The notes under the pieces were generated by a model that was given only the letters and a program-made list of their open reading frames with translations, was not told the DNA's origin and searched no databases. DNA of 22,379 nt from the IMG/VR virus record IMGVR_UViG_3300017987_000392, positions 1 through 22,379 of that record, one strand, 5' to 3'. This document shows positions 1,671-21,155 of the stretch, piece after piece. The translations under genes and the position numbers were made by a program. Every line of letters starts with the position of its first letter. Within the stretch, counting starts at the first letter, position 1. The DNA comes from a virus.

Positions 1671-3827
1671 ATGGCAGCTAAAAAGACAGGGAAACAAAAG
1701 CCGCAACGGATGTACACGAAGGGGGATAATTGTGTTATAGAGCACACTCTTCCGGAAGTTTGCCATCTGAACCACGGGGTTCCTGGGAGAACGGTAGCCG
1801 CCACCCTGAATAAAAGGTCTGGGTATAACCGATACGATCATGATGCAGGCAGGCCCGGAGATAAGCTCCCAACAGAACACAAGGAAGTTGTGGCCGCATG
1901 CCAATCTATTTATCGTCGAGTAGGTATGGTCAGGAATATCATAGACCTGATGACAGATTTTGCAGCAGAGGGATTGGAACTACAACATACGACAAAGACC
2001 CAAGAGAGATTTTTCCGCGAATGGGCGAGACGTGTCAACCTCCAGGGACGTGCACACGACTTTATGAAGCTTCTCATGAGAGATGCGAATGTCATTGTGT
2101 ACAGAAAGAATGCATTTATTACGAAGCCTGTAGTCAGAGAGATGACCAAGGCCGACGTGACTTCTCTGGACATGCTTGATGAAACCAAGGTACCAGACAA
2201 GCCAGAAAAGATCGGGACCACAAAGAAACTAACCAATCGTCGAGAGATACCGTGGCGCTTTACATTTTTGTCACCAACGAATGTGGAAAAGATTGGTGGC
2301 GAAGTTGGCAAGTTTTTCGGTGCTGATGCGTTAGGGTTCAGAATTCCGCAAGAACTAGCCAATGCTATTCAAAGACCGAGGACCCAGGCTGAGAAAGCGT
2401 GGGTTGCTAAGCTCCCGTCGAATGTCATTCGTGCCGCGAAGAAGAACAGCACCCTTGTCGAATTAGAGATGGACAAGATCTACGTAGATTACTACAAAAA
2501 AGACGACTGGGAAGACTGGGGAACACCATTCCTCTATGGTGTACTAGAAGATGTGATGTTCAAAGAGAAGATGCGACTCGCGGATATGGCAGCGCTAGAT
2601 GGTGTCATCAACGTGATTCGTTTGTGGAAGCTTGGCAAGTCTGATCAGCAAATCATGCCATCGCCAGCCTTGGTGGACCGTCTAGTTGGTATTCTACAGA
2701 ACAACACCGGTGGCGGTGTTATGGACCTTGTTTGGGACGATATGATCGATCTACAGGTTGAATATCCACCGGTAGATAAGATTTTGGGTCCAGACAAGTA
2801 TCGAGGTGTGAACGCCGATATAGTCAGGGGTCTCGGTATCCCGGATTCGTTGGTCGGAGGTGCAGATCTCGGGACAAGAAACGCGCAGTCTGCTTTTGTA
2901 CAACTAAAGACTCTGGTAGAAAGATTGGAGTATGTTCGAAGCAGGGCGATCAGATGGATGGAAGGTGAGTTGCGTCGTGTAGCCGACGCTATGGGATTCA
3001 AGCAGATCCCAGCCATCAATTTTGGTATCATGTCTTTGCGTGACGAAGCAGCAGAAAAGCAGCTAATGATCCAACTATTGGATCGTGGTATTATCTCGTC
3101 TGAGAAGGCAACAGAAGTCTTTGGTGTTAATTACATGATTGAGCTAGAACGGATCAAGTCCGAGCAGACCATCCGAGAGGAGAATCCAGGAGTGCTTGAG
3201 AAGGCAGGTCCATACTACAGACCAGTTTCTGTTATGGAGAAGCAGGGTGATTTGGCTGTTGAACTGGCCAAGGTCAAGCAGGGGTACAACAGAGATAGCG
3301 AATTCCCCCCAAAGGAAGGGGAACAAGAGCCGAGTGATGACACAGGTGGCGACGAGGGTGGCGAAAATCCGAATGGGGATCAGCCGAAAGACGATGGTGA
3401 TAATCCAAGCGGGAGACCACCGTCCACCAAGGATACTGGCCCCAGGGACGAACGGACACCGACGACGATGTCTACTCTCCACATAGTAGCAGAAGGTCTG
3501 ATGGACCAGCTAGACGGAGTAATTGATGGGGAGTACCTTAAGCAGAAAGATATCAAGAATATGCGGTCTATGACTAAGGCTCAGCGAGTCGAACTGGAGC
3601 GCACCAAGCGAGGGATCTTATCTGTCTTGCAAGCTGGAGACACTGTGACTAAGGAACTGATAGCATCTCGCATAGGCAGTTCTGGAAAGAGAGATAGATT
3701 GCTTGAATCATCGTTCAGCAAATTGCATGCTGAATTTACGGCTTCAACCAAAAAGGAACCTACCACCAAGGAACGAAGAATGCTCACAGCCCTGGCCTGG
3801 GCGACACTCGCTGATTCGAAAGGATAG
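1671..3827 (+). CDS. Portal protein
   Basis: This is the dodecameric ring at the head vertex through which DNA enters and to which the neck attaches. The 718-residue length fits large phage portals. Portal-like segments are the N-terminal helical part around residues 84-104 (VGMVRNIIDLMTDFAAEGLE), a middle region with DDWEDWGTPFLYGVLEDVMF, and a crown/stem region around residues 373-397 (KYRGVNADIVRGLGIPDSLV). After the core there is a low-complexity acidic, Gly/Pro-rich linker (about residues 546-599) leading to a separate charged C-terminal helical domain of about 120 residues, which is unusual and could be an inward-facing or scaffold-contacting extension. The ATG at 1671 follows GGGGGTAAA. 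It lies directly after the terminase gene and its stop overlaps the next start region. Confidence 0.85.
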   Translation: MAAKKTGKQKPQRMYTKGDNCVIEHTLPEVCHLNHGVPGRTVAATLNKRSGYNRYDHDAGRPGDKLPTEHKEVVAACQSIYRRVGMVRNIIDLMTDFAAEGLELQHTTKTQERFFREWARRVNLQGRAHDFMKLLMRDANVIVYRKNAFITKPVVREMTKADVTSLDMLDETKVPDKPEKIGTTKKLTNRREIPWRFTFLSPTNVEKIGGEVGKFFGADALGFRIPQELANAIQRPRTQAEKAWVAKLPSNVIRAAKKNSTLVELEMDKIYVDYYKKDDWEDWGTPFLYGVLEDVMFKEKMRLADMAALDGVINVIRLWKLGKSDQQIMPSPALVDRLVGILQNNTGGGVMDLVWDDMIDLQVEYPPVDKILGPDKYRGVNADIVRGLGIPDSLVGGADLGTRNAQSAFVQLKTLVERLEYVRSRAIRWMEGELRRVADAMGFKQIPAINFGIMSLRDEAAEKQLMIQLLDRGIISSEKATEVFGVNYMIELERIKSEQTIREENPGVLEKAGPYYRPVSVMEKQGDLAVELAKVKQGYNRDSEFPPKEGEQEPSDDTGGDEGGENPNGDQPKDDGDNPSGRPPSTKDTGPRDERTPTTMSTLHIVAEGLMDQLDGVIDGEYLKQKDIKNMRSMTKAQRVELERTKRGILSVLQAGDTVTKELIASRIGSSGKRDRLLESSFSKLHAEFTASTKKEPTTKERRMLTALAWATLADSKG

Positions 3828-3829
3828 TG

Positions 3830-4486
3830 ATGGACAAGGGACAATTGCAGTTTGACCGGTGTGATACGTATATGTATTTTGCCGAGAACGCATTACCACA
3901 ATCACCAGTGATCGTAGAGGTTGGTTCTATCCACGGAGCACACGGTATCAAGTTGTGCAACAGATTCAGTGGCGATCTGACGATGATTGCGTATGAAGCT
4001 GGCCAAGAGAATCATGAGACTTTGGTCGCTGGTGTTGCTGCGTCAACAGCCGATATCGCAACACATAGGGCTGCGGTGACAGGACAAGACGGAGAAGTTG
4101 AGTTCTTTGAGTTTGCTGAGATTTCTTCGAATAGTACATATCCACGACACGAGGGGGAAGGCAGGACTTTGCGTCGAACGAGTATGGTTCGGTGTGTCAG
4201 CTTAGAGACAATTATGGCAGACAACAATCTAAACCATATTGATCTACTATTTCTCAATTGTGAGGGTGCGGAGCTTGGCATTCTGGAAGAAGTCCTTGCC
4301 AAGCCTCATCTGCGAGACAAGATGGGTCAGTTGTGTGTTTCTTTTCATGGTGGTCGGATTTACCCGCAGGCAGATACACTGCGGATGGTTGAGCGTATGT
4401 CTGAGTTTTTTGTGGTGGTGGAGGAACAGAACGATTGGCCTTGCCACCTCTTTGTTAACAAGGGTCTTGAAGTGACCGGGGGGTAG
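3830..4486 (+). CDS. FkbM-type SAM-dependent methyltransferase
   Basis: This predicted enzyme transfers a methyl group from S-adenosylmethionine; FkbM relatives mostly methylate hydroxyls on small molecules or sugars. In the 218-residue protein, motif I is VIVEVG (residues 27-32), followed by the acidic-strand region YEAGQENHETL (55-65), an AVTGQDGEVEFFEF stretch typical of the family, V-CVSLETIM (120-129) and the FkbM signature NHIDLLFLNCEGAE (135-148). I chose the ATG at 3830 over the GTG at 3827 because AAAGGA (3819-3824) is 5 bases before it. It abuts the portal stop and is followed 2 bases later by the next gene, so it is translated as part of the head operon. The substrate is unknown; a glycan on the virion or host surface is an inference. 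Confidence 0.82.
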   Translation: MDKGQLQFDRCDTYMYFAENALPQSPVIVEVGSIHGAHGIKLCNRFSGDLTMIAYEAGQENHETLVAGVAASTADIATHRAAVTGQDGEVEFFEFAEISSNSTYPRHEGEGRTLRRTSMVRCVSLETIMADNNLNHIDLLFLNCEGAELGILEEVLAKPHLRDKMGQLCVSFHGGRIYPQADTLRMVERMSEFFVVVEEQNDWPCHLFVNKGLEVTGG

Positions 4487-6934: not shown

Positions 6935-7960
6935 ATGAAGCGTAACATACGGAAACCAACTCCTGAGCAAGTTGAACTTCTGAAGCGCACCGGCTCAGCG
7001 AATAAGGCCGAGGCACTGGAAGCGATGCATTCGCTCGCACAGGCTCTACAGGTTCCACTACGGTCTGCGTTGCTCGATGGTGATATCCTGGGCGGAATCT
7101 TCACACCTGAAGTTCTGGACCCAAGTGCTACTGCCGAGTATCCGCTTGACTTCTATCAGACTGCACAGGAAAGTGACTATGTGGCATACATGATTCCGAG
7201 TGAAGGTGCTCTACCACAGCGCACGATCACCGGTGATGCCGTGACGATCAACACATATGATGTTGGTAACGCAATTGACTGGCCGCTCAAGTATGCGACC
7301 TCTGCACGTTGGAACATTGTTGCTCGTGCCATGGAAGTCCTTGAGGCTGGCTTCGTCAAGAAAATGAACACTGATGGCTGGCGTGTCATCATCGCGGCTG
7401 GTGCTGGTCGTACAGACTACAACGGTGGTGCTCCACTGGTGTACGATAGTGCGGCAACTGCTGGTCAGTTTACCAAGCGTCTCGTTTCGCTGATGAAGAC
7501 GACCATGACTCGTCTCGCTGGCGGGAACAGTGCGACCCCGAACCGTGGTCGGCTGACCGACCTGTTCATCAGTCCTGAGGCTCTTGAGGATATCCGTGAG
7601 TGGGATGCCGATGAGGTCGACGACCTCACACGTCGGGAAATCTTCACGGCTGGCGATGACGGTGGTCCGATGGCCCGGATTTATGGCGTAAACCTCCATC
7701 CACTGGATGAGCTAGGTGTAGGCCAGGAATTCCAGACGTACTTCGCAACACTGGGTGTCTCCATGGGCACGAGTGATGAGGAAATCGTCATCGGTCTCGA
7801 CCTTTCGCACGGCGACTCGTTCGTCATGCCTGTCAAGCGTGAACTGGCGATCTTCGAGGACGACATGCTCCACAGGCGTCAGAAAGCCGGTTTTTATGGA
7901 TGGCAAGAACACGGTTTTGCAGCCCTAGACGGGCGTCGGGTACTACTCGGCTCGTTCTAA
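6935..7960 (+). CDS. Major capsid protein (HK97-like fold)
   Basis: This is the main shell protein of the phage head, 341 residues. The N-terminal part is charged and helical (TPEQVELLKRTGSANKAEAL), followed by a segment typical of capsid proteins with PLDFYQTAQESDYVAYMIPS, then GDAVTINTYDVGNAIDWPLKYA, a long spine-helix candidate (ARWNIVARAMEVLEAGFVKK) and an A-domain-like segment that includes RLTDLFISPEALEDI and GVNLHPLDELG. It follows the protease, scaffold and cement genes, as expected. The ATG follows AAGGGGGTGA (6919-6928), an evidently strong site. Codons here look more regular and C-rich (cgt, ctc, ggt, acc) than in neighbouring genes, as expected for a highly expressed protein. A strong terminator follows 43 bases after the stop. 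Confidence 0.88.
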   Translation: MKRNIRKPTPEQVELLKRTGSANKAEALEAMHSLAQALQVPLRSALLDGDILGGIFTPEVLDPSATAEYPLDFYQTAQESDYVAYMIPSEGALPQRTITGDAVTINTYDVGNAIDWPLKYATSARWNIVARAMEVLEAGFVKKMNTDGWRVIIAAGAGRTDYNGGAPLVYDSAATAGQFTKRLVSLMKTTMTRLAGGNSATPNRGRLTDLFISPEALEDIREWDADEVDDLTRREIFTAGDDGGPMARIYGVNLHPLDELGVGQEFQTYFATLGVSMGTSDEEIVIGLDLSHGDSFVMPVKRELAIFEDDMLHRRQKAGFYGWQEHGFAALDGRRVLLGSF

Positions 7961-13871: not shown

Positions 13872-14462
13872 ATGGCAGACTTTAATGGATCAGGCAACCT
13901 ATTCATCAACGGGAGCGTGCCCGTCCCAGCCCTGTCATGTCCTGCGCTAGACCCAACAGCATCTATTCAGATTAAAACTGAATTGATAGAAATCTACCAA
14001 TCAAGAATTGACGCTTTGATTAACCAGTTGGGGAAAAATGTCTATCTGGAGTTTGATCCTGTGAAGAGCCCTTGTCCAAACTGTGAATATGACACGCTCA
14101 GGAACCGGTCTACTGGTATATACAAAGCTGGTGGCCCAAGGCCATTTGGTCGCGGGAGAAAGTGTCCGTATTGCAAGGGTCGTGGGTTCACGGAAACGCC
14201 TGTCAATAAGTGCATCAAATGTCTTACGAAATGGAACCCGAGGGATGCTTCGGATTACGGGATATCCGTATCTCACAGGAAGGGTGTTGTGAGACTCAAA
14301 ACATATCTGACAGAAGCAGATGATCTTGCTAGAGCAAAAACGGTTGTTGTCAACCACGATATCGTTGATCAAATGAAATTGAAAGTTAGGCTCATTCAGG
14401 GTCCGATTCCTGTCGGCCTTAGGGACGACAGATATTGCATCAGTTTTTGGGAGTTGATGTAA
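13872..14462 (+). CDS. Zinc-finger structural protein of the neck region
   Basis: In this 196-residue protein the N-terminus carries one short unit (GSGNLFING) of the same type as the CxLxIxG units in the upstream fibre protein. A helix follows (IKTELIEIYQSRIDALINQL), then a zinc-binding region with three Cys pairs: CPNC near residue 68, CPYCKGRG near 98 and CIKC near 114, similar in spacing to DnaJ-type fingers. The C-terminal part is beta-rich (VVRLKTYLTEADDL, KLKVRLIQG). Its stop overlaps the next ATG (TAATG), so the two are coupled. The position between connector and tail genes suggests a virion or assembly protein; the function is not known. Confidence 0.65.
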   Translation: MADFNGSGNLFINGSVPVPALSCPALDPTASIQIKTELIEIYQSRIDALINQLGKNVYLEFDPVKSPCPNCEYDTLRNRSTGIYKAGGPRPFGRGRKCPYCKGRGFTETPVNKCIKCLTKWNPRDASDYGISVSHRKGVVRLKTYLTEADDLARAKTVVVNHDIVDQMKLKVRLIQGPIPVGLRDDRYCISFWELM

Positions 14463-16155: not shown

Positions 16156-17277
16156 GTGCCCAATAACAGGATTTTCTACGCGATTCAGGCCCTTGGGTTC
16201 GCCGAGCATGATGTAGTTTGTGACGCTAGTGGCTGTGGGGCCATTTATGGTGTTGCTGGCTCTGGTACGCACCCATCGGGTTTCCGGACTGCACACGGTG
16301 TGCAAAGTGTTGGTTTGAATACTACGTTCAATCTTGAACAAGTATTCGAGCTTGGTCAATTGGAGCTTTACGAGAACATCGAGGGTATTCCGGATATTGA
16401 ACTGACGGCACAGAAGGTGCTCGATGGCTATCCGCTTCTGTATCACCTGGCGACTCCAGGTGCTACATCCGCCACGCTGGTCGGCCGTTCGAACGAGCGG
16501 TGCTTCGCGGCTTTGAATATTTACCCAGATTCATTCGACAACGCTTCTGGTACTCCACTTCAGTCTGTGGGTATGTCTGGTATGTATGTATCGGCATTGA
16601 CCTACACGATGAATGTGGATGGTAGTTCAACTGAGGACGTGACCCTCGTTGGCAACAACAAAGAATGGGTCGCCAGTGGCCTGACACACTTTACGCCGAC
16701 ATCGTTCGATGGTTCAGACGCTCCGCTTTCTCTTGCTGCTTCCGGTGGCGTGGCACGTCGAGAGAACATCCTAATGGGCTCTGGCTGTTCTATGAACTCT
16801 GCTGGTGTCATTACGGGTGTCAGTGGTAGTATCTGGCCGATCGAGATTGATGGCATTGACGCGAATGGCCACAACCTTGTCTCAGGTGATTCGTATGCTG
16901 CTCACCTCCAGACTGTAACAGTATCTAGCGACTTGGGTCGTGAAGAATTGTTCGAGCTTGGTCGGAGAGGTCCGTATCACCGGTTTGTTTCGTTCCCGAC
17001 AGAGGTAACGTGCGCTATCGATACGACTTCATCCGAGGGTGACCTGGTTGATGCTCTAGCAGATCCGGTAGGTGGTAGCAACATCACAGACCAGAAGATC
17101 TTTATCTGGATTGAGGAAGGGACGAGAATCAATCTGGGTGCCAAGAACAAACTTGCATCTGTGACGTATGGTGGTGGCGATGCGGGTGGAGGTAACGTGA
17201 CGGTCACGTACAACTATTCGAACTTCAACTCGCTGAAAGTCACGCACGTAGCTGATCCGGCAGGGTTGGCAACATAG
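16156..17277 (+). CDS. Major tail tube-like protein
   Basis: This 373-residue protein is predicted to form the tail tube. The GTG at 16156 follows AAGGGGGAG (16141-16149), the site type used for abundant structural proteins in this phage. Tail tube-like segments are LNTTFNLEQVFELGQLELYE, IPDIELTAQKVLDGYPLLY, VSALTYTMNVDGSSTEDVTL and a related second half with VTVSSDLGREELFELGRRG and FPTEVTCAID. FELG occurs twice (FELGQ and FELGR), hinting at two related halves or one fold with an insertion. The gene has its own promoter-like element and is followed by a strong terminator, fitting a highly expressed virion protein. No tail sheath gene is visible, so the tail type stays open. Confidence 0.65.
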   Translation: MPNNRIFYAIQALGFAEHDVVCDASGCGAIYGVAGSGTHPSGFRTAHGVQSVGLNTTFNLEQVFELGQLELYENIEGIPDIELTAQKVLDGYPLLYHLATPGATSATLVGRSNERCFAALNIYPDSFDNASGTPLQSVGMSGMYVSALTYTMNVDGSSTEDVTLVGNNKEWVASGLTHFTPTSFDGSDAPLSLAASGGVARRENILMGSGCSMNSAGVITGVSGSIWPIEIDGIDANGHNLVSGDSYAAHLQTVTVSSDLGREELFELGRRGPYHRFVSFPTEVTCAIDTTSSEGDLVDALADPVGGSNITDQKIFIWIEEGTRINLGAKNKLASVTYGGGDAGGGNVTVTYNYSNFNSLKVTHVADPAGLAT

Positions 17278-17284
17278 TCCGAAA

Positions 17285-17304
17285 ACAAGCATGTGGTAGC
17301 TTGT
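17285..17304 (+). other. Hairpin upstream of the tail tube terminator
   Basis: ACAAGC (17285-17290) pairs with GCTTGT (17299-17304) across an 8-base loop, directly after the stop codon. Together with the following terminator it mirrors the arrangement after the capsid gene. Confidence 0.45.
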
Positions 17305-17313
17305 GACCAAACA

Positions 17314-17342
17314 GGGACGGCCTTCGGGCCGTCTCTTTTTTT
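17314..17342 (+). terminator. Intrinsic terminator with a TTCG loop
   Basis: GACGGCC (17316-17322) and GGCCGTC (17327-17333) form a perfect 7-bp stem closed by TTCG, extended by a G-T and a G-C pair, and followed by seven Ts (17336-17342). It closes the structural region. Confidence 0.95.
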
Positions 17343-17351
17343 ATTTACCGC

Positions 17352-17380
17352 TGAACAGGCGAGGTAGTTGTCAGTATAAT
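17352..17380 (+). promoter_or_regulatory. Promoter of the zinc-tail gene cluster
   Basis: TGAACA (17352-17357) and a perfect TATAAT (17375-17380) are 17 bases apart. The same pair, with the same spacing and preceded by C, is found at 19609-19637. The start of transcription is expected at about 17386-17388, on the ATG of the next gene. Confidence 0.75.
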
Positions 17381-17385
17381 ACAGC

Positions 17386-18012
17386 ATGAAGCCAGAAGAC
17401 ATGATATATGTGAGGTCGTCCGATAAAGATAGTTATGCCAATATTTTCGAGTATGCGAAAGATAGCAGATTCAGTGTTTCGATGGGACAGGGTCATTGTG
17501 GTATCTTTTTGTCGGTCAGACCAGATGAAATCCGCGAGATCTGTCGTTATCTTGAGTTCGGACGATCGGAAAAGCATGATCTGTATTTTGACGCGATGGA
17601 ATATGCGACCTTACACACCGGAGACGTAGAAACAACACCGACAAAATGGAATTTGCATTGGAACGGAGTCTTTTTCTGGTTCGGTAGAAACCCGAAACAT
17701 CCGTATGGGACCTACGAGTCTGTTGCCGGTGTCGATTTTGAAACAGCACAACAAATGGTTACGAGCCAGACATTCACGTATCCTCAAAGTGCGACAAAAC
17801 AAGATCATCAGAAAACACTTGAGAGACTAATGGGGAAAATCCCGAAGATGAAACCACCGAATTTTTTGATACCCAAAACGCTCATTGACGATTTGGCATC
17901 TTGTGATAAAGACGAATCACCGTGTGATGAATCGCCATGTCGTGAGTGCAAAGGGACTGGCAAGATCGTTTTGTTCACAAGTGTTGTGGACTGTGATTGT
18001 ACCAGGGGGTAA
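17386..18012 (+). CDS. Zinc-tail family protein 1
   Basis: I do not recognise the main domain of this 208-residue protein. It is probably alpha/beta, with FSVSMGQGHCGIFLSVRPDE followed by a helix, then an aromatic segment (WNGVFFWFGRN) and a helix with DFETAQQMV. After a Pro/Lys-rich linker come CDKDESPCDESP and the conserved C-terminal tail: C185-RE-C188-KGTGKIVLFTS-VVD-C203-D-C205, ending TRG. This looks like a small zinc ribbon and is nearly identical to the ends of the next two proteins. The ATG at 17386 lies 5 bases after TATAAT, with no ribosome site, so translation is probably leaderless. The first gene of a three-gene family; function unknown, no signal or membrane segment. Confidence 0.72.
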   Translation: MKPEDMIYVRSSDKDSYANIFEYAKDSRFSVSMGQGHCGIFLSVRPDEIREICRYLEFGRSEKHDLYFDAMEYATLHTGDVETTPTKWNLHWNGVFFWFGRNPKHPYGTYESVAGVDFETAQQMVTSQTFTYPQSATKQDHQKTLERLMGKIPKMKPPNFLIPKTLIDDLASCDKDESPCDESPCRECKGTGKIVLFTSVVDCDCTRG

Positions 18013-18013
18013 G

Positions 18014-18463
18014 ATGGCATACGCACTACATATCAACGAGGCAGTAAGATTCGTCATAAATGATTTGTCTTTGGATGAACGTTGTGTAAGCATCCAATTC
18101 TACGACAAGATGCGTGTTGAAATTGGCGCGGTGATGTTCAGAAACAATAGTCTGACGCGGTTTGTAGATTTGCTATCGAAGAGAAACAGACCGTCAAGTC
18201 GATCGATCCCACCCAACTGCCAGAAAGACAAAATAATTATTGAATGCACTGGTGATGCAAGCGTGCGTATTATTTCGCAATTTGGTCCAGCCCCATGGCC
18301 ATGCGTCTTGTTAGACGAATATTTGGCTACAAAACTTTTGGGGAGACTGGAATCCATAGTAACAAAAACAATGAAGCCAAGATCTACATGCAAAGAATGT
18401 AATGGTACTGGCAAGATCGTTCTCTTTACTAGTGTGAGAGACTGTGATTGCGGAAGAGGGTAG
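18014..18463 (+). CDS. Zinc-tail family protein 2
   Basis: The ATG at 18014 follows AGGGGG (18004-18009) and lies 1 base after the previous stop; the longer open frame to 17885 is only overlap. The 149-residue protein has an N-terminal alpha/beta domain (FVINDLSL, VSIQFYDKMRVEIGAVMF, then a helix with FVDLLSK) and a PWPCVLLDE segment, both matched in the next protein (ISFYDSRRVTVGFLLL; PWRCVILDE). The C-terminal tail is C126-KE-C129-NGTGKIVLFTS-VRD-C144-D-C146, ending GRG. It is a clear paralogue of the next gene and shares at least the tail with the previous one. Function unknown; a common partner that recognises the tail is an inference. Confidence 0.72.
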   Translation: MAYALHINEAVRFVINDLSLDERCVSIQFYDKMRVEIGAVMFRNNSLTRFVDLLSKRNRPSSRSIPPNCQKDKIIIECTGDASVRIISQFGPAPWPCVLLDEYLATKLLGRLESIVTKTMKPRSTCKECNGTGKIVLFTSVRDCDCGRG

Positions 18464-18466
18464 GGA

Positions 18467-18937
18467 ATGGCACACGTGATTCACGAGAACAAAGCTACTC
18501 AATTCGTAGTGGATGATTCACACCCAAGTACCCATGTGGATATCTCGTTTTACGACAGCAGGCGAGTGACCGTGGGGTTCCTCCTACTAAGCGAAGATGC
18601 CACATCACAACTGTTGGATTTCCTCATGTCTGGCTGGAATTTGGGATCAAGAAAAGAGATTTTGCTTGGGGGTAATTGTCGAGACAAGTTCATCCTAGAG
18701 CCGAAGCTTGTCGACGGCGATTTGTGTGTGTATATAACTATGGCATATGGATCGTCTCCATGGCGGTGTGTTATTTTGGATGAGACTGTCACAGCAGGGT
18801 TGTTAAGGGAACTGTGTTGTGTACAGGCCGTGCGAGCAAAACCAAAATCTGCTTGCGAAGAATGTGGTGGTACTGGGAAAGTAGTCCTTTTCACAAGCAT
18901 AAGGGATTGTGATTGTGTTGGAGGATCAGATGCATAG
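18467..18937 (+). CDS. Zinc-tail family protein 3
   Basis: This 156-residue paralogue of the preceding protein starts MAHVIHENKATQFVVDD (compare MAYALHINEAVRFVIND), keeps the FYD-RV-VG strand pair, an NC-K-I/F segment and the PWRCVILDE motif, and ends with the zinc tail C130-EE-C133-GGTGKVVLFTS-IRD-C148-D-C150, then VGGSDA. The main domains have diverged much more than the tails. The ATG is 3 bases after the previous stop, with the GAGGG of the upstream tail codons as its ribosome site. Its own tail codons in turn contain the GGAGG that serves the next gene. No known family recognised. Confidence 0.72.
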   Translation: MAHVIHENKATQFVVDDSHPSTHVDISFYDSRRVTVGFLLLSEDATSQLLDFLMSGWNLGSRKEILLGGNCRDKFILEPKLVDGDLCVYITMAYGSSPWRCVILDETVTAGLLRELCCVQAVRAKPKSACEECGGTGKVVLFTSIRDCDCVGGSDA

Positions 18938-19175
18938 ATCAGAGAAAAAGATTGACGACGACTGCACAATCTCGTACAGGGACGACCCTGTTTCACGAGA
19001 GGAATTGTTCGAACGAGTAATCGAGTGGATGTTCGTCAACGGCATTTTTTCTGGGGAATCAGTTTATCAGAAGGATGTGTTCAATGATACGCTAGATTCT
19101 CTCATGGACGACATCATCACCAACATCCTAGAAGTCAAAGAAACGTATGACGACGAAGACGACGGCGGTGTATAA
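18930..19175 (+). CDS. Small acidic protein
   Basis: The ATG at 18930 follows GGAGG (18920-18924) at 5 bases and overlaps the previous stop by 8 bases; the product is 81 residues. It is strongly acidic, probably all-helical (SREELFERVIEWMFVNG, FNDTLDSLMDDIITNILEV), and ends in a run of Asp and Glu. It has no Cys pairs apart from one Cys near the start, and no membrane segment. It is coupled to the zinc-tail genes. Small acidic phage proteins can mimic DNA or bind host proteins, but nothing here proves this. Confidence 0.6.
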   Translation: MHRSEKKIDDDCTISYRDDPVSREELFERVIEWMFVNGIFSGESVYQKDVFNDTLDSLMDDIITNILEVKETYDDEDDGGV

Positions 19176-19253
19176 GACCTATGAGTGACAATGCAAGCAG
19201 ACGTCAGATGTCTTAGTTACGTCATCCTTGTGCGTCATTCGCTACCTTGTGAC

Positions 19254-19277
19254 CGGGGGTCTGAAACATGGCCCCCG
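19254..19277 (+). other. GC-rich hairpin before the membrane protein gene
   Basis: CGGGGG (19254-19259) pairs with CCCCCG (19272-19277) across a 12-base loop, followed by CTTCTTT. It may terminate the zinc-tail operon weakly, or shape the leader of the next gene. The T-run is poor. Confidence 0.4.
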
Positions 19278-19296
19278 CTTCTTTCGTAGAGGCCCC

Positions 19297-19611
19297 ATGC
19301 CCAAAAAGTGGTACTTCGTCCTACCCCTGATAGTCTTTGCCGTTTCCATTGGGGATCTGTGTGTCACCATACACGCCGATCGTGAATATGATGAATTCGT
19401 CGAGGCTAATCCAATCGCAGCACACATCTGGGACACCCATGGAGATACTGGCCTGATCGTGTTCAAACTCTCCATCACTTTGGTGTCTTGCACCTGCATG
19501 GCTTGGGCAATCAAACGCCGTGGTGGCCGTTGGACGACCTTTGTATCGGTCTTTGGATTATCGGTCTGCGCTTTCTTGGTAGGCTGGTGGATTTTCTGGT
19601 TTTTCAACTGA
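19297..19611 (+). CDS. Small membrane protein
   Basis: I take the ATG at 19297, which follows GAGG at 5 bases, over the TTG at 19228 because the longer version would need coding across the GC-rich hairpin. The 104-residue product has three likely membrane segments: about residues 5-22 (YFVLPLIVFAVSIGDLCV), 52-70 (LIVFKLSITLVSCTCMAWA) and 79-103 (FVSVFGLSVCAFLVGWWIFW). Between them, the pattern D-CVT, FVEANPIAA and G-TGLIVFKL resembles DUF5658-like proteins (a conserved D near the first helix, an NP motif and a K in the second helix). The function of that family is not known. It could act at the host inner membrane, e.g. in exclusion or lysis control. Confidence 0.55.
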   Translation: MPKKWYFVLPLIVFAVSIGDLCVTIHADREYDEFVEANPIAAHIWDTHGDTGLIVFKLSITLVSCTCMAWAIKRRGGRWTTFVSVFGLSVCAFLVGWWIFWFFN

Positions 19612-19637
19612 ACAACGACTCTGGTTTGACGTATAAT
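19609..19637 (+). promoter_or_regulatory. Promoter of the lipoprotein-RNA ligase genes
   Basis: TGAACA (19609-19614) and TATAAT (19632-19637) are 17 bases apart, the same pair as at 17352-17380. The -35 box overlaps the stop of the membrane protein gene. The expected start of transcription (19643-19645) again falls on an ATG (19643), although here a better-supported ATG with a ribosome site lies 30 bases further on. Confidence 0.75.
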
Positions 19638-19879: not shown

Positions 19880-20197
19880 ATGACGAGAGAGCAAGCAGAA
19901 GCGTTGGTCAAGAGCATCAAGGGTTCGACAGCAACCAAACATCCGAAGCAGTTGATTGCTGAGCTATGTTCGGTCGTTGAGTTCTTGCTGAAAGAAGTCA
20001 AGCTATTGTCGCCACCAGTTTTTGGAATCGACAAGGATATGCCGGTTGTTGAGCCCGACCTTGGGGCCGAACCGGATCGTCCGTTCCGCCAACCACCAAG
20101 ACCGACGCTTGGTCCTGACACGGTTGACGATGGGGACACAACAGACCCATATCTAAGAGGCATCATGGAAAAACAAGAGGGCGATGACAATGTTTGA
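19880..20197 (+). CDS. Hypothetical protein with Pro/Asp-rich tail
   Basis: The ATG at 19880 follows GGAG (19870-19873) with the lipoprotein stop immediately before it. The first half of the 105-residue product is helical and charged (REQAEALVKSIKG, KQLIAELCSVVEFLLKEVKLL). The second half is Pro-, Asp- and Gly-rich and probably unstructured. There is no recognised family. Its end overlaps the start of the RNA ligase gene by 14 bases, so the two are coupled and may be functionally linked. Confidence 0.6.
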   Translation: MTREQAEALVKSIKGSTATKHPKQLIAELCSVVEFLLKEVKLLSPPVFGIDKDMPVVEPDLGAEPDRPFRQPPRPTLGPDTVDDGDTTDPYLRGIMEKQEGDDNV

Positions 20198-21155
20198 AGT
20201 ACCATCGCATACGTGCGACGTGGTTGAAATCAAGCTTGAGCCGCACGACAACGCAGATTCGTTGAGTATCGTACGGGTAGGCGATTTCCAATGTGTTGTT
20301 CGTACATCCGATTGGAAAGACGGTGATCTCGCGGTCTACATTCCTCCAGACAGTATTGTGCCAGACACAGAAGTGTTTGCGTTTCTCGGTGAGCACAAGC
20401 GCATCAAGGCTCGTCGGTTGCGTGGTGAGTGGTCGGTTGGTCTTCTAGTACCTGCTCCTGAAGGTGCTAAGGTCGGCGATGACTACATGGAACAGCTTGG
20501 TGTCGAACACTACGAGCCACAAATCCATGGAGGTTTCAAGACCGGGGGTGATAATGTCTCCCCTCCAGCGGGGTTCCATCCAACGTACGACGTGCTCAAC
20601 TTCCGTAAATATTCGAGACTGTTTGAGGACGGGGAAGAGGTTGTCGCAACCGAAAAGATCCACGGTGCCAATGCTAGGTTTGTTTGTGTGGACGACACCA
20701 TCTATTGCGGATCAAGGAAACACTGGAAGAAAGAAGATCCAGACAATCTGTGGTGGAGGGTTTTGCTCAACAACACATGTCTTGATTCCTGGCTGAGACA
20801 TCACCAGGGTCTCACAGTATATGGCGAAGTCTTCGGTAACGTACAGAGCCTCAGATACGGGTCCACCAAGGGCGATATCTTCTTTGCTGCTTTCGACATC
20901 TTAGCTGGTAACACCTGGCTAGGATTTGACGAAGCCCGCGAGATTGGAGCACCATTGAATTGGGTTCCTACGGTGTATCGTGGTCCATACGACAAAGCCC
21001 TACTTTTGGGTCTAGCAGAAGAAGACAGTAGTGTCCCAGGTGCGAATCACCACAGAGAGGGTGTTGTTGTTAAACCCGTTGCTGAGCGGATGGACCAGCG
21101 TCTCGGTCGTGTTCAACTCAAGATCGTGGGCAATCGGTATCTGAGCAAGAGTTAG
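20184..21155 (+). CDS. RNA ligase, DRB0094/Rnl5-like
   Basis: This enzyme joins RNA ends through an enzyme-AMP intermediate. The 323-residue protein carries all nucleotidyl transferase motifs: motif I EKIHGANARF with Lys158, SRKHW (177-181), motif III VYGEVFG (212-218), IIIa FFAAFDI (233-239), motif IV EGVVVKP (292-298) and motif V LKIVGNRYL (312-320, Lys313). About 140 residues precede motif I, including an OB-like region with VVRTSDWKDGDLAVYIPPDSIVP. An N-terminal OB domain is the mark of the Deinococcus DRB0094 (Rnl5) group rather than T4 Rnl2. The starts at 20184 and 20190 are both possible; AAGAGG precedes both. No end-healing kinase/phosphatase is visible nearby. Repair of RNA cut by host defences is the usual proposed role. 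Confidence 0.88.
   Translation: MTMFEVPSHTCDVVEIKLEPHDNADSLSIVRVGDFQCVVRTSDWKDGDLAVYIPPDSIVPDTEVFAFLGEHKRIKARRLRGEWSVGLLVPAPEGAKVGDDYMEQLGVEHYEPQIHGGFKTGGDNVSPPAGFHPTYDVLNFRKYSRLFEDGEEVVATEKIHGANARFVCVDDTIYCGSRKHWKKEDPDNLWWRVLLNNTCLDSWLRHHQGLTVYGEVFGNVQSLRYGSTKGDIFFAAFDILAGNTWLGFDEAREIGAPLNWVPTVYRGPYDKALLLGLAEEDSSVPGANHHREGVVVKPVAERMDQRLGRVQLKIVGNRYLSKS

Follow-up and report, generated by a model that had tools for sequence, protein, structure and literature searches.

The window, by which we mean the whole stretch of viral DNA analysed here (22,379 nucleotides), contains three tandem genes on the plus strand, at 17386..18012 (gene 1, 208 aa, with an alternative in-frame ATG start at 17401), 18014..18463 (gene 2, 149 aa) and 18467..18937 (gene 3, 156 aa). 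All three terminate in the motif CxECxGTGK[IV]VLFTSxxDCDC, which we term tail A and which lies on the plus strand at 17938..18000 (CRECKGTGKIVLFTSVVDCDC), 18389..18451 (CKECNGTGKIVLFTSVRDCDC) and 18854..18916 (CEECGGTGKVVLFTSIRDCDC), being terminal in genes 1 and 2 and near the end in gene 3. The initial annotation had reported three tandem genes with a near-identical four-cysteine tail, and we find its coordinates and translations to be correct: 17 columns of the 24-residue tails are invariant (C1, E3, C4, G6, T7, G8, K9, V11, L12, F13, T14, S15, D18, C19, D20, C21 and G24), and the cysteines and their spacing, CxxC-x14-CxC, are identical in all three. A fourth member, gene 4 (18930..19175, plus strand, 81 aa), has no tail; it is coupled to the cluster, its start overlapping the 3' end of gene 3, and its single distant relative is found in L060.

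Genes 2 and 3 are homologous along their whole length (42%, E 5e-38), and the likeness of gene 1 to genes 2 and 3 is confined to the last 27 residues (E 3e-12 and 1e-10, respectively); homology of the gene 1 body with those of genes 2 and 3 was rejected on comparison. Tail A is thus modular, and protein 1 carries it on a different main domain, as had been proposed. Within the paralogous pair the tails are indeed better kept than the bodies, with identities of 17/21 (81%) and 47/123 (38%), respectively (Fisher p 3e-4), and identical residues are encoded by different codons at 10 of 17 positions in the tail and 29 of 47 in the body. Since synonymous codons are equally diverged in tail and body, it is the protein sequence that is selected, and recent gene conversion is no explanation. 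The gene 1 tail is nearer to that of gene 2 (18/21) than the gene 2 tail is to that of its paralogue, gene 3 (17/21), a small difference. Gene 2 gave no signal of internal duplication. For the bodies of genes 1 to 3 no relatives were found, and none occur in the corresponding slot of the clade members compared; a resemblance of the gene 2/3 body to bodies from the same slot in relatives G006 and G002, suggested by eye, was unsupported on testing. Viral contigs searched with A2, A1 and P0001 returned no match.

Given that the genes are tandem and that their 3' ends overlap with the ribosome-binding site of the following gene, the likeness of the tails might be read as the product of recent duplication or gene conversion, or as a translated DNA-level element of the 3' end. 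We consider this highly improbable: codons differ at 59% of identical residues in tail A of genes 2 and 3, and at 58% among carriers of a second tail, B (see below), and the frame is always the same. Such synonymous divergence with residues kept rules out recent gene conversion or a DNA-level 3' element. The initial annotation had also counted a Gly-rich end as part of the tail; the cysteine motif and GTGK[IV]VLFTS stand, but the Gly-rich end does not, being mostly the Shine-Dalgarno sequence of the following gene (ACCAGGGGGTAAG, GGAAGAGGGTAGGGA and GTTGGAGGATCAG, each directly followed by ATG) and unconserved outside the window.

Comparison with relatives places genes 1 to 3 in a variable slot. 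Its left border is a conserved 373-aa protein (16156..17277, plus strand), presumed from its position to be a virion (tail) protein, which gave no family match and has 39 relatives in IMG/VR at 90-22% identity, many of them on contigs of 120-180 kb. Downstream, the slot is bordered by a conserved DUF5658-like membrane protein (19228..19611, plus strand; E 3e-5; 10 relatives), beyond which lies a conserved RNA ligase (20184..21155, plus strand). The cluster had been described as sitting outside the structural region; it does lie beyond that region, although not far, directly after its last conserved gene. Elsewhere in the window, an FkbM-type methyltransferase (3827-4486; PF05050, E 8e-8) lies between the portal and head genes.

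Between the 373-aa gene and the cluster are a terminator-like hairpin with a T run (17313..17336, plus strand), identified by consensus match only, and, ahead of gene 1, the sequence GAACA-N16-GTATAAT (17353..17380, plus strand). The latter conforms to a motif that is over-represented in the intergenic regions of the clade, in line with the earlier suggestion that the cluster has its own promoter. Such over-representation of GTATAAT holds for 9/9 clade genomes and, in many cases together with a preceding [AG]AACA box, GTATAAT is probably the clade's promoter; of the two elements the box is the less secure, as the [AG]AACA...GTATAAT motif has 69 matches vs 47 for a control motif. A second promoter-type match occurs in the window at 19610-19637. 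The corresponding slot in G006 holds two tandem genes with a common other tail, ending in DENLNSVFG and DDNLRGVFE, and that in G010 holds an SH3-like protein with the end DDNLRSVFA. Immediately before the slot's tail-bearing gene, which in G002 and G010 is a tail-B gene, [AG]AACA-N13-17-GTATAAT is found in the window, G002 and G010. From the presence of the promoter at the same slot position in all three, we conclude that slot and promoter persist, as does the use of tailed cargo, and that it is bodies and tails that change. Relatives with the same arrangement but other tails strengthen the idea that the tail is a tag.

Tail A recurs on unrelated bodies beyond the window. A DNA pattern for it identified 8 stretches in 7 viral contigs and a looser pattern 22 stretches; profile searches of whole records gave up to five copies per phage, and relative G002 has four within 2.5 kb. 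G002, G006 and G007, found via the tail pattern, are among the relatives of the 373-aa protein; the module is therefore found again within the clade to which the window belongs. The carriers are mutually unrelated, and tail-bearing proteins elsewhere match the window proteins in the tail only; the module is C-terminal, internal or N-terminal, often behind a GKPDP-like lead, and is therefore not strictly a C-terminal tag. Since LFTS-like residues were built into the search patterns, the strictness with which that strand is conserved is in part imposed by the search, and profile matches free of the constraint show drift; the most conserved positions are the four cysteines and the glycines. Similarity of tail A is greater within genomes than between them (0.67 vs 0.59, permutation p 0.003), a difference to which paralogy contributes. 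At G002 7578-7694, a tail-A stretch occupies a 39-codon open frame inside a tandem cluster, probably the end of a frameshift-broken gene or a very short gene. The window also encodes, at 13872-14462, a presumed virion protein conserved in relatives, whose cysteine-rich segment (CPNC...CPYCKGRG...CIKC) is unrelated to tail A and whose homologues are often fused to long upstream proteins.

Searching 84,980 genomes, we obtained 0 matches to one tail A pattern and 1 to another, so that under these patterns a common bacterial domain is rejected; named phages and plasmids gave chance-level matches only. The sole bacterial or archaeal match (L099 3886-4032, from the Candidatus Heimdallarchaeota MAG CP070695.1) reads CPHCKGTGKITLLTSIVDCEC; the short open frame that contains it precedes a fragment resembling a formylglycine-generating-enzyme domain, and either viral DNA or mistaken binning could account for the match.

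Beyond tail A, no fewer than two C-terminal tails, B and C, are shared within the clade and are new here; we found no description of any of these tails, A included, in the open-access literature. Comparing C-termini by anchored alignment in a sample of eight relatives, read in pieces, and the window, with home-made gene calls, we observed 72 similar pairs vs 12 with random internal ends, an excess that is partly ordinary paralogy. Tail B (ending LKxQLDDNLRSVFG) is present in 13 proteins of these genomes, vs 0.15 expected from random internal ends, and a stringent DNA pattern for it gave 12 matches, vs 0 for the reversed pattern. It is carried by several kinds of small proteins (L067 7232-8046; L063 7229-7486; L228; L229; G002, G006 and G010), with further carriers in G003, G014 and G019, and its sites include the slot homologous to the window's cluster. 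No difference in similarity within vs between genomes was seen for tail B (p 0.24). The T4-type C-terminal clamp-binding peptide was considered as a model for this tail; the C-termini of long proteins carry no such motif, and no family-B polymerase was found. Tail C (ending KHSSxRRVEL) is carried by three or more protein families, among them a stand-alone BRCT domain, with carriers at G007 17006-17290, 54118-54600 and 135887-136264, G006 24761-25105, G002 63292-63834 and G010 123013-123405 as well as in G008 and G009. G010 also encodes, at 158066-158494, a small protein ending in GGGDDNIPF, a tip typical of bacterial single-stranded-DNA-binding proteins.

The interchangeability of the tails, as far as sequences indicate, rests mainly on SH3-like bodies bearing either A or B, where SH3-like denotes a judgement from a sequence pattern (KPGDxI...) and refers neither to a solved nor to a predicted fold. 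Among tail-B SH3-like pairs, identity is 0.59 in the tail and 0.32 in the body, the tail being the better conserved in 15/15. A profile of these tail-B bodies, built without tails, retrieves from 2130 proteins the tail-A bodies of L059 (1e-13) and L008 (4e-10) and, weakly, three tail-A proteins of G002 (0.003 to 0.06). Both tails thus occur on one body family, and within G002, likewise within G003, both are found on SH3-like bodies. As the bodies of genes 1 to 3 have no relatives, exchange is shown for the SH3-like family rather than for the window's own bodies.

Tail A is a probable four-cysteine, one-zinc ribbon, with a knuckle (CxxCxGTG), a strand (IxLFTS) and a second knuckle (CxC), as judged from its cysteine pattern; AlphaFold models (pLDDT 34-35) are too poor for a fold search. 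Its profile neighbours (the DnaJ Cys-rich domain, anti-TRAP and antitermination protein Q) share only the CxxCxGxG knuckle. Two of these nearest knuckle-bearing neighbours, Q and anti-TRAP, are regulators, and SH3-like bodies are common in such regulators. These points, the former weak, would fit a tail that is an autonomous zinc ribbon binding nucleic acid or RNA polymerase, its carriers being separate small regulators in which the body provides specificity and the ribbon affinity, with no tag system at all. However, basic residues are few in tail A, and this account leaves unexplained that the one body family has parallel tails, B and C, neither of which is a ribbon. We judge it unlikely, and regard it as a serious rival all the same.

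Also a serious rival, and rather unlikely in our estimation, is the view of the tail as a zinc-nucleated cap for folding or stability, or as an oligomerisation unit, that very small proteins reuse through recombination and that has no partner of its own. That the four cysteines and the glycines are the most conserved positions would be expected of such a unit, and in anti-TRAP, a small protein whose CxxCxGxG-type cysteine knuckles bind zinc, both oligomer formation and function need zinc binding (PMC2896485). On the other hand, K9, V11, D18 and D20, which are not needed for zinc, are also kept within the window, and tail B, or no tail at all, serves paralogous bodies well.

From these observations, we tentatively favour, at slightly less than even confidence, the hypothesis that the tails are interchangeable docking or targeting modules sending small accessory proteins to a common partner; zinc binding, docking, the partner and the destination are what we infer. 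The clade would keep the slots, their borders and the promoter fixed, with small accessory proteins coming and going, and what is retained would be a short module, presumably leading every new arrival to one destination; candidates for this are the virion and a hub, of phage or host, common to all. Other slots and relatives may use other modules for the same job, i.e. tail B (with its NLRSVFG end) and tail C (a basic peptide with an HSSxRRVEL end). We stress that N-terminal and internal copies of tail A speak against a docking tag, in that they would be needless for a pure C-terminal address, and tail A is better described as a mobile cysteine mini-domain, with a putative docking function, than as a purely C-terminal tag. 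Thus, the tail observation of the initial annotation is confirmed and its interpretation is partly supported: a selected module on diverse bodies stands, an exclusively C-terminal position does not, in view of the copies in relatives and other phages, and docking or tagging is still inference.

It is possible, although doubtful, that this clade of large phages has a small code of interchangeable tails, A, B and C, each addressing changing small effectors to its own hub, and that a new effector becomes functional once it has gained a tail within a slot that already has a promoter. Tails that do serve as addresses would offer a handle on a large stock of uncharacterised small phage proteins, as carriers could be listed by sequence and the common target fished with one tail; they would also supply short tags by which a protein of choice could be sent to a location defined by the phage.

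Compared with known systems, tail A shares one CxxCxGxG knuckle with the central domain of DnaJ (PF00684), but that domain has four such repeats, whereas tail A combines one with CxC and is accompanied by no J domain. Gene 2 scores 16.9 bits against PF00684, the gathering cut-off being 32.7, genes 1 and 3 have no match, and no significant PHROG match was obtained; the tail is thus not part of one known full-length domain, and DnaJ membership is rejected, being below cut-off and of the wrong architecture. Anti-TRAP (PF15777) is likewise a small protein with a CxxCxGxG-type knuckle, but has two such motifs at short spacing and tail A one; 4 of 25 tail sequences match it (best E 0.02), and with one motif rather than two and no significant match, we reject membership. 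The tail A profile also matches the knuckle of antitermination protein Q, an RNA-polymerase-binding phage regulator, not significantly (PDB, E 0.67-1.0 over 9 residues; PHROG Q-like family, E 0.12). The arrangement would be analogous to the internal proteins of T4, in which a short conserved targeting sequence is carried by highly diverse small accessory proteins (PMC3012670), and the clade's tails share this feature of a short conserved tag on diverse proteins. The T4 capsid targeting sequence is N-terminal (PMC9026906), whereas tails B and C are C-terminal and tail A is C-terminal in the window but internal or N-terminal elsewhere; moreover, at least three kinds of tail occur here, one of them cysteine-rich. 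Should the tails prove to be addresses, the principle known from T4, in which variable cargo bears a conserved targeting sequence, would be extended to further kinds of tag.
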